Part shown: positions 1 through 39,238 of the stretch, piece by piece | Numbering within the stretch: position 1 is the stretch's first letter | Layout: each line of letters opens with the position of its first letter | Assembly (NCBI RefSeq): GCF_000761545.1 | Contig: NZ_JPMY01000010.1 | Coordinates: forward strand, 62,001 to 126,000 | DNA from: Pseudomonas sp. ML96 | Lineage (GTDB): Bacteria > Pseudomonadota > Gammaproteobacteria > Pseudomonadales > Pseudomonadaceae | DNA: 64,000 nt | Reading direction: 5' to 3' | The notes under the pieces: generated by a model | What the model saw: only the letters and a program-made list of their open reading frames with translations | Databases searched by the model: none | Told to the model about the DNA's origin: nothing | Position numbers and translations under genes: made by a program

Positions 1-1086
1 CAGTTGGGCAAGCGCTTCCCGCACGCCGGCGGCGCGCCGCACCTGATCGGCCGCGCCTTCGGCGGGCGCATGGAGCGGTTGATCGCCTTCCTGTTTCTCG
101 CCGTTCTGCCGGTCGGCCTGCCCGCCGCGCTGAACATCGCCACCGGCTTCTGGCAGGCGCTACTGCCGATCGGCGCGGGTGGCGCACTGCTGATCCAGTT
201 CGCCACCCTCGGCGCCATGCTCCTGCTCGGCCAGCGCCCGGCCCGCGCCAGCGGCATGGTGCAAGGTCTGATCGCCCTGGCGATCCTCGGCACCGTCGGC
301 CTGATCTGGTGGGTTGGCGATCTGCCGCGCGCCAGCCAACCGCTGCTGCCGGCGATCGACGATTCCTGGCAACTGATTCCCGGAGCGCTGGGCGTGATGT
401 TCTGGTGCTTCGTCGGCATTGAGGCCTTCACCCACCTGGGTGAGGAGTTCAAGCGTCCCGAGCGCGACTTTCCTCTGGCCCTGCTGCTCGGCGTGCTGCT
501 GGCCGGCCTGGTGTACTGGGCCTTCTCGGTGGCGGTGCTGAGCTTCGGCGTGTACGGCGACGAGCACAGCGACGCCGCCTCGCTGCCGCGGCTAATGCAC
601 ATGCTGCTCGGCGATGAGGCACGTGCGCTGGTCGCAGTGGTCGGCTACCTGGCCTGCTTCGCCTCGATGAACATCTACGTGCAGGGCTTCGCCCGCCTGA
701 TCTGGAGCCTGGCCGACGAAGGCAAGCTGCCGGCTGCCCTGGCTCCGCTCAACCGCCACGGCGTACCGGCGCGCGCGCTGCTGCTGGTGGTGCTGATCTG
801 CTGCCTGTGCGCCAGCCTCGCCAGCGTGCTACAGCTGTCGGTGGACGACCTGATCCGCTACGCCAACGGCAACTTCATCGTCGTCTACCTGCTCAGCATG
901 GCCGCCGGCTGGGTGCTGCTGCGCGGCGTCTGGCGCTGGATCGCCGGTTTCAGCACCCTGCTCTGCGCCCTGGTGCTGCTGGCCCTCGGTGTGGAAGCGC
1001 TATACGCCCTGGGCCTGCTCGCCGGCTTCGCGGTGATCGGCTACTGGCTGGAGCGCCAGCAGCGGCCGCAGGTCTCACGCAGCTAA
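1..1086 (+). CDS. APC-family amino-acid permease, YjeH-like (5' end outside window)
   Basis: The reading frame is open from the first base, so the start lies upstream and about 361 residues are visible. The protein is almost entirely hydrophobic helices separated by short charged loops, including the stretch FWCFVGIEAFTHLGEEFKRP, which matches the conserved APC-superfamily segment where a Glu-rich loop follows a GxEAF-type helix. Overall similarity is to the YjeH (L-methionine/branched-chain amino-acid efflux) branch, whose members are about 420 residues, so roughly 55 N-terminal residues are missing. It should sit in the inner membrane and exchange or export neutral amino acids. The substrate is inferred from the family, not seen. 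The last base of its TAA stop is also the first base of a structured repeat (1086-1228). Confidence 0.8.
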   Translation, partial: QLGKRFPHAGGAPHLIGRAFGGRMERLIAFLFLAVLPVGLPAALNIATGFWQALLPIGAGGALLIQFATLGAMLLLGQRPARASGMVQGLIALAILGTVGLIWWVGDLPRASQPLLPAIDDSWQLIPGALGVMFWCFVGIEAFTHLGEEFKRPERDFPLALLLGVLLAGLVYWAFSVAVLSFGVYGDEHSDAASLPRLMHMLLGDEARALVAVVGYLACFASMNIYVQGFARLIWSLADEGKLPAALAPLNRHGVPARALLLVVLICCLCASLASVLQLSVDDLIRYANGNFIVVYLLSMAAGWVLLRGVWRWIAGFSTLLCALVLLALGVEALYALGLLAGFAVIGYWLERQQRPQVSRS

Positions 1087-1228
1087 GAACCGGTTTACGA
1101 TCTCGCGAGCTAGAGATAAACGGCGGCGAAAGTGGCCGAGGAAGCGGAGTTTACGAGTGGTAAATGAGCATTCCGAGGGCGCTTTCAACTCCGTTTAGCC
1201 AACGCGCAGCAGATCGTAAACCGGTTCT
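1086..1228 (+). repeat. Structured intergenic repeat, copy 1 (121-nt core plus extended terminal stem)
   Basis: The element begins AGAACCGGTTTACGATCT and ends with the exact reverse complement (1211-1228), an 18-bp perfect terminal inverted repeat. Inside are a second stem (AAACGG with CCGTTT), a third (GAAAG with CTTTC) and an apical hairpin GTTTAC-GAGTG-GTAAAT. Conserved unpaired blocks include GAGCTAGAG, GCCGAGG and CGCGCAGCA. A second copy of the same 143-nt length lies at 37098-37240, and an inverted copy of the 121-nt core lies at 39044-39164. The core here is 1097-1217. No target-site duplication is visible and the element encodes no plausible protein. It fills most of the gap between the permease and the TAXI gene. 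Confidence 0.85.
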
Positions 1229-37069: not shown

Positions 37070-37097
37070 CGGCGTCTATAGTCCTTTCTGCAGCGTC

Positions 37098-37240
37098 AGA
37101 ACCTGTTCAAGGTCTCGCGAGCTAGAGCCAAAGGGTGGCGGAAAGGGCCGAGGAAGCGGAGTTTACGAGTGGTAAATGAGCATTCCGAGGCTGTTTCCAA
37201 CGCCGTTTAGCCGACGCGCAGCAGACCTTGAGCAGGTTCT
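37098..37240 (+). repeat. Structured intergenic repeat, copy 2
   Basis: It has the same 143-nt length as copy 1. The terminal arms AGAACCTGTTCAAGGTCT (37098-37115) and AGACCTTGAGCAGGTTCT (37223-37240) form 17 Watson-Crick pairs and one T.G pair. Four arm positions differ from copy 1, and each is matched by a change in the opposite arm. The internal stem GGAAA/TTTCC replaces GAAAG/CTTTC of copy 1. The apical hairpin and the blocks GAGCTAGAG and CGCGCAGCA are identical. It lies between the zinc-ribbon NUDIX gene and the DUF2789 gene. Confidence 0.85.
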
Positions 37241-37266
37241 CAGATCGACCACACCGGGAGGGACTC

Positions 37267-38540: not shown

Positions 38541-39044
38541 ATGCGCTGGCTGCTCGCCCTACTCTGCATCACCCTCACCGGCCTGTCCCAGGCCACCCCG
38601 GCCCCCGCGCCCAGCGGCAAGCCGGTGGACAAGGTGCTGGTCGTCAAATCCGAACGCAAGCTGCACCTGATGGGGCGCGGCGAGGTGCTCAAGTCCTACC
38701 GCATCTCGCTGGGCAAAATCCCCACCGGCGCCAAGGTGCGCGAGGGCGACCTGCGCACGCCGGAAGGCTTCTACTGGATCGACTGGCGCAAGACCAGCGA
38801 CAAGTACAACCTGTCCATGCACATCTCCTACCCCAACGCCCGCGATGCCGCCAATGCGCGCAAGAAAGGCGTCTCGGCTGGCGGCATGATCATGATCCAC
38901 GGCACCCCGCTGGACGATGAGTACCCCGAGTGGTTCTTCAACACCTTGGACTGGACCGAGGGCTGCATCGCCATGCGCAACGCCGACATGCGCGAAGTCT
39001 GGAGCATGGTGCAGGACGGCACGCTGATCGAGATCCGCCCCTGA
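38541..39044 (+). CDS. L,D-transpeptidase (YkuD domain), periplasmic
   Basis: The 167-residue protein has a signal peptide (1-20, ITLTGLSQA-TP) and one YkuD domain. The catalytic motif reads MIHGTPLDDE... and WTEGCIAMRNADM, with the nucleophilic Cys in TEGC; the usual [S/T]-x-GC[I/V]R Arg is replaced by Ala, with an Arg two positions later. It acts on peptidoglycan by making or remodelling 3-3 crosslinks or attaching lipoprotein. It is a short ErfK-like enzyme without a LysM domain. The last A of its stop codon is the first base of repeat copy 3. Confidence 0.88.
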   Translation: MRWLLALLCITLTGLSQATPAPAPSGKPVDKVLVVKSERKLHLMGRGEVLKSYRISLGKIPTGAKVREGDLRTPEGFYWIDWRKTSDKYNLSMHISYPNARDAANARKKGVSAGGMIMIHGTPLDDEYPEWFFNTLDWTEGCIAMRNADMREVWSMVQDGTLIEIRP

Positions 39045-39164
39045 CGATTTGCTGCGCGTCGGCCGGGCGTTGTTGGGAGAAGGCCTCGGGTGCTCATTTA
39101 CCCTATGTAAACTCCGCGCCCTCGGCCTCCTCCCGCCTAGCCCGGCTCTAGCTCGCAGAATCGT
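39044..39164 (-). repeat. Structured intergenic repeat, copy 3 (121-nt core, inverted)
   Basis: Read on the minus strand it aligns along its whole length to the 121-nt core of copy 1 (1097-1217): GAGCTAGAG, GCCGAGG, GGAGTTTAC-N5-GTAAATGAGCA, CCGAGG and CGCGCAGCA are all present. The terminal stem is ACGATT/AATCGT instead of ACGATC/GATCGT, a compensated change. The inner stems are GCCGGGC/GCCCGGC and GGGAG/CTCCC. The extra 11-bp outer arms of copies 1 and 2 are missing. It begins on the last base of the TGA stop of the L,D-transpeptidase gene. Confidence 0.8.
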
Positions 39165-39190
39165 GTAGTCCCTGCGTCCAGTAACGAATG

Positions 39191-39213
39191 AGGCGCCTAC
39201 GGGCGCCTTTTTC
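39191..39213 (+). terminator. Terminator downstream of the L,D-transpeptidase gene
   Basis: GGCGCC and GGCGCC pair around TACG, followed by TTTTT (39208-39212) on the plus strand. It lies beyond repeat copy 3, so the repeat would be part of the transcript. Confidence 0.8.
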
Positions 39214-39238
39214 ATGCGCGGGATTTGCCGGAAGATAA

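Follow-up and report, generated by a model that had tools for sequence, protein, structure and literature searches.

The repeats described here, of which three copies lie in the window (the whole 64,000-nucleotide stretch of the Pseudomonas sp. ML96 genome that was analysed), are best read as MITEs that IS5-type transposases would mobilise in trans and that combine interchangeable ends with a retained folded core. We put the probability of this reading at roughly three in four. As expected of MITEs, the repeats have no transposase gene, are about 141 bp long and occur as intergenic copies. The evidence comes from covariation between copies, from the types of mismatch tolerated on each strand, from empty sites in a sister species and from the identity between element arms and the terminal repeats of insertion sequences (IS) in two sister genomes.

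Sequence inspection located three copies in the window, each of which folds into a single long hairpin with bulges, about 141 bases in length, and the exact apical motif has three matches there against 0.00 expected. The original prediction of three structured copies therefore stands, with limits refined by a covariance model, R1, built from 26 copies of the window's own genome. The first copy runs from arm to arm over positions 1087-1227 of the plus strand between the flanks TAA and TGA (R1 match at window 1085-1228, C10:63085-63228, plus strand, 145.5 bits), and is directly preceded by the TAA stop codon of the upstream open reading frame (1084-1086). Its left outer arm, which resembles a terminal inverted repeat, occupies plus-strand positions 1087-1103 (GAACCGGTTTACGATCT), its right outer arm 1211-1227 (AGATCGTAAACCGGTTC), and its near-invariant apical hairpin 1147-1170 (GAGTTTAC-N5-GTAAATGAGCA). 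The second copy, also on the plus strand, extends over 37099-37239 (R1 match at 37097-37240, C10:99097-99240, 145.4 bits) with its apical hairpin, located by motif match, at 37159-37182. This copy (L045) lies between plus-strand TCA direct repeats at 37096-37098 and 37240-37242, which represent a target duplication. The third copy is inverted, has degenerate outer arms and covers 39034-39176 of the minus strand (R1 match at 39033-39176, C10:101033-101176, 115 bits); its apical hairpin matches the motif at 39091-39114, and it overlaps the 3' end of an open reading frame at 38541-39044. When folding is compared with dinucleotide shuffles, copy 2 gives a z of -8.75 and copy 3 a z of -4.9. The differences that had been described between the left arms of copies 1 and 2, compensated at positions 7, 11, 13 and 15 and producing a T-G pair at position 9, are correct base by base. 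A hairpin that resembles an intrinsic terminator (AGGCGCCTACGGGCGCCTTTTT) is present just past copy 3, at 39190-39215.

In a structure-agnostic MAFFT alignment of 26 own-genome copies, two-sided changes occur in 35 of the 46 pairs and 94% of the cells are paired; among 57 copies from across the class such changes are found in 44 of the 46 pairs. The class-wide covariation score is 0.693, compared with 0.193 for shuffled and about 0.1 for slid alignments, and in both alignments the observed covariation exceeds 500 of 500 shuffles as well as all slid controls. Covariation extends through the outer arms, middle stems and apical stem alike. A long bulged hairpin forms the inner core, its apex being AGTTTAC-N5-GTAAATGA and its internal loops AAGGC // AACGC, and the unpaired blocks AAGGC, GA, AA, TGAGCA and AACGC are nearly invariant across the class. 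Stems that covary between copies, together with an apical hairpin and single-stranded blocks that hardly change, had been proposed from the three window copies; we recover both features, the near-invariant apical hairpin in the own-genome and class-wide alignments alike.

Covariation of this kind could in principle be mutational, if template switching during replication corrected quasi-palindromes by copying one arm to the other with no selection on the fold. Such a process would fit the near-perfect arms, a G-U share of only about 6.5% among all paired cells, and the fact that two-sided changes are far more numerous than one-sided ones. However, palindrome correction is strand-symmetric and should leave G-T and A-C mismatches in equal numbers, whereas the plus-strand departures from Watson-Crick-majority pairs show G-T to A-C ratios of 65:18, 102:37 and 171:65 in three alignments, as counted with shared ancestry ignored and with alignments A2 and A3 fitted to the model. 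For single-step departures the excess of G-T reaches significance at AT-majority pairs in every alignment and at GC-majority pairs in two of the three; its presence in AT-majority pairs also argues against a simple C-to-T bias. Palindrome correction would furthermore wipe out internal loops, and here AAGGC//AACGC, GA..AA and TGAGCA have hardly changed throughout the class. Mutational correction by itself does not explain the fold, and we consider it unlikely to be the source of the covariation. G-T pairs and A-C does not, and the plus-strand excess of G-T over A-C therefore indicates that the fold is selected in one strand. The strand with GAGTTTAC..GTAAATGAGCA is the one under selection to fold, as RNA or as single-stranded DNA. 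Selection on a folded RNA or single-stranded DNA, as the original prediction had it, is thus supported both by the covariation and by the wobble tolerance of one strand.

The family is widespread and its copy number is uneven. In the window's own genome we found about 40 copies by BLAST and 62 by covariance model, and the model-based search of related genomes that had been suggested for this element gave matches in 31 of 38 relatives, with 0-79 copies per genome among congeners. In wider searches the covariance model matched 103 of 274 genomes of the class and 107 of 299 of the phylum, and the family ranges over Gammaproteobacteria, other classes of Pseudomonadota and Bacteroidota of the ruminant gut. 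The exact core pattern, a search that by its design favours conserved cores, is present in Nitrosomonadales and Desulfobacterales and, within Bacteroidota, in Alistipes, Rikenellaceae and Bacteroidaceae; the model agrees, scoring these matches at about 47-75 bits. The phages searched contain no match to the element and the plasmids contain few copies, on which grounds a phage or plasmid origin was ruled out. Membership in a known Rfam family, which would have removed the novelty claimed for the element, finds no support either, as an Rfam scan of the window returned nothing at gathering score. Below threshold, the only match was to sX9 (RF02228), a Xanthomonas sRNA, with 26.7 bits against a gathering score of 44 (L001:1507-1580, minus strand, corresponding to window 1092-1165). 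Here the minus strand of the left half of copy 1 aligns along the entire sX9 model, and sX9 may be a transcribed half of a relative of the element. The 20 other loci with copies gave no match to sX9.

In order to locate empty sites, the joined flanks of own copies were searched against four relatives. The sister species G013 has clean empty sites at L033, L037, L038 and L042, with flanks 84-95% identical; it also lacks the element at L034 and L039, where the junctions are less clean, and its site orthologous to L035 is occupied. The empty targets read CTAAG, CTTAG and CTCAG. Exact flanking repeats were scored in 21 own copies, with TCA/TCA in eight, TA/TA in two and no clear direct repeat in 11; two further TCA/TCA pairs (L052 and L056) were judged by eye, and overall a TCA or TA direct repeat flanks about 10 of the 23 own copies that have arms. 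Among RCAGG-armed copies from several genomes, TA/TA flanks were found in 26 of 32 rows, some of which represent one element from both ends. The element is mobile. According to statistics from a home-made and rough codon scorer, copies lie in operon gaps or near the ends of genes and take both orientations relative to genes. By rough gene calling, the copies at L031, L042, L048, L049, L053, L054, L056 and L060 adjoin the stop codon of a neighbour, the T(N)A target being TGA or TAA on one strand.

Such positions beside genes and inside operons would also suit regulatory RNAs or 3'-UTR modules that benefit the host, acting as mRNA stabilisers or processing sites, with mobility being incidental. 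Selection on the fold of one strand agrees with such a role, as do the sX9-like minus strand and the effect on mRNA stability reported for ERIC in Yersinia (PMC2229807). However, a copy number that varies from 0 to 79 within one genus and sister sites that are empty at high identity are difficult to reconcile with a host function, and the copies lie in both orientations to genes (on rough calls) that, where inspected, are unrelated to each other. We consider this explanation improbable. The original prediction had offered it beside a second option, in which a transposase acting elsewhere in the genome moves the repeat as a non-autonomous element; the regulatory option loses ground to the same observations, and the transposed-element option gains support because of the empty sites, the short target duplications and the identity of arms and IS5-family terminal repeats in sister genomes.

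This identity concerns the outer arms, which a clade has in common and which bear no relation to those of other clades, although left and right arm remain complementary. Arms of the type GAACCTGTTTACGATCT characterize the window's clade, and GCAGGCTGTTGAAAAAGTC, GGGTCTGTACGAAAAG, GGAACCTCTGATTTATTC, GAGGTTGAATAAAAAG and others are found in other clades; the window-clade arms (GAACCTGTT) have the end type TNA-GAACCTGTTTACGATC / T(N)A-GARCCTGTTYAYGATC. A 1.34-kb IS5-family IS with a transposase gene and the ends CTAGCAGGCCGTTGAAAAA is present in Pseudomonas genomes G012, G347 and G365, and a variant of it in G351. In G365 and G347 its terminal repeats are identical to the arms of the core elements over 18-20 nt at both ends, with TA flanks, and in these two genomes MITE and autonomous IS therefore have their terminal inverted repeats in common. 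The terminal repeat is all that an IS of the G012/G365 type shares with the element. Annotated IS5-family elements (Thiolapillus pTBH10 and ISAzs10) likewise carry RCAGGnnGTTGAAAAA as their terminal repeat, and together with the G012/G365 IS have the same terminal-repeat type as core elements. Genome G242 contains a broken IS5-like remnant whose end is the same as that of the elements in that genome, and P. mendocina EF27 contains both an RCAGG-type core element and the IS, the terminal repeat of this IS copy being slightly different.

The window's own partner IS is missing, because no IS with TNA-GAACCTGTTTACGATC arms was found in the window genome (G000) or its four close relatives (G001, G008, G012 and G013), and no relative of the IS5 transposase in G000; the search of the window genome thus gave no autonomous IS that matches the element. 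Arm-like matches in it at C10:390670, C3:180314 and C42:39818 were ruled out as autonomous IS for want of a transposase, and the sequences with own-type arms in the four relatives were rejected as partner IS, being only longer composite elements. Those of G001 (L258-L267, for example L259:264-785, L260, L261 and L262) are about 175-505 bp long and have the same GARCCTGTTCACGATC arms. Several carry a CAAGGC-AAAAGCGG inner flank, but in place of the apex they have different sequence, with REP-like palindromes (TGTGGGAACGGGC / GTAGGAGCGGC) among it.

Movement of a folded single strand by a hairpin-reading recombinase, either attC-like or of the HUH/RAYT type as for REP/REPIN, would be a different route. 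Bulged hairpins with conserved unpaired bases are the architecture of attC and REP, to which the element may be likened by analogy, and the fold of one strand is selected here. However, ends identical to those of a DDE IS5-family element and the TA duplication suffice to explain movement, and no arrays were seen; we regard this route as very improbable. By inspection, the window element also differs in size and ends from REP/REPIN, a 20-40 bp palindrome with a GTAG-type tag and a RAYT gene.

For MITEs with borrowed IS5-type ends we infer the following mechanism. IS5-family (DDE) transposases, acting in trans, would use the outer arms of about 18 bp as terminal inverted repeats and insert the element at T(N)A targets with duplication of TA or TNA, mostly TCA in the own genome; such targets would often be stop codons, and copies would persist where genes stay unbroken. 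Arms would be exchanged between clades to match an IS5-type element that is, or formerly was, resident, so that the core could follow different transposases. The core would owe its retention to a need for the plus strand to fold when single-stranded, either as RNA when co-transcribed or as DNA during movement or replication. Its role may be to fold within transcripts of flanking genes, comparable to ERIC in Yersinia (PMC2229807), or to provide a folded strand in transposition.

ERIC (also IRU or RU-1), known from Enterobacteriaceae and Vibrionaceae (PMC10969869), resembles the window element in being a long bulged intergenic hairpin, with a YTTAC..GTAAR apex between GGAG and TGA and a loop AAGGCG // CAACGC. 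TA at its ends and target duplication have been reported (PMC2229807). It differs in its arms (ATACTC..GAGTAT, compared with GAACCTGTTTACGATCT), in its length (about 127 bp, compared with about 141 bp) and in its shorter middle stems. We ran the class-wide covariance model, R2, on seven ERIC copies. Six were matched at full length and on the expected strand, that is, the one with GGAGCTTAC..GTAAGTGA: Pantoea (35.7 bits), Klebsiella aerogenes (27.6), an E. coli IncN plasmid (26.7), Rahnella (19.0), Providencia (19.0) and E. coli (15.9). The seventh scored 6.1 bits only, and coreless hairpin controls reached about 11 bits or less. The alignment to R2 places AAGGCG, GGAGYTTAC, GTAARTGA and CAACGC in register. 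Because the family model matches ERIC at full length, ERIC probably belongs, as a distant member, to one superfamily with these repeats. The sequence-only model R3 detects no ERIC, so the link rests on structure and short motifs and is probable, not proven.

A wider proposal, to which we hold tentatively and at somewhat less than even odds, is that ERIC, the Pseudomonas repeat and the relatives in other Pseudomonadota and in Bacteroidota belong to a single superfamily of passengers that switch transposases, in which the folded core lasts, the terminal repeats are swapped and the core has a single-stranded function of its own (recognition in transposition, or rendering insertions in transcripts harmless). 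No partner IS for ERIC is identified in the literature consulted on it, and a 2007 review noted that transposase action on such repeats was without experimental support and left it to future work (PMC2229807). We found no description of a cross-phylum family or of a tie between ERIC and IS5 in literature outside subscription journals. The IS5-family transposases whose 18-20 nt terminal repeats equal element arms offer a testable partner for ERIC-like repeats in tractable Pseudomonas genomes, and the borrowed IS5-type ends suggest a route by which such repeats move. The family joins repeats of other Pseudomonadota and of Bacteroidota in one structural family that is absent from Rfam, and provides an example of a MITE whose ends change and whose folded core is constant. 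If true, this reading could be used for annotating thousands of unexplained intergenic hairpins.

Two further Pseudomonas repeats invite comparison. MITEPsy1 of P. syringae is an IS5-like MITE for which transposition was demonstrated (PMC3189936). It is small, like the element, and has IS5-like ends (GGAAGGTCTGAAAAAGCC), with CTAG or YTAA as targets; we rejected it as a family member because the core is absent, its 10.4 bits coming from the arms alone. The R178 repeat of P. fluorescens is intergenic, 101 bp long, with an internal 11-bp inverted repeat and low tens of copies (PMC2718517), and may be this family under a local name.

Several variants were also observed. A second hairpin family in G059 (L199, L205 and L211) is coreless and has TAGCAGGATGTTGAAAAAGTC ends with an IS5-type terminal repeat and TA flanks. 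Several own copies, namely L010, L016, L025, L030 and model matches of 154-168 nt, have about 14-25 nt extra, either in the AAGGC loop or on the side facing it, and some of these inserts are similar to one another (CCTRGGCGGCCCCGC). Finally, L153:4227-4317 (G000:C22:15226-15316) is a 91-bp deletion derivative that has kept both arms and lost the apex, located 1.6 kb from a full copy.
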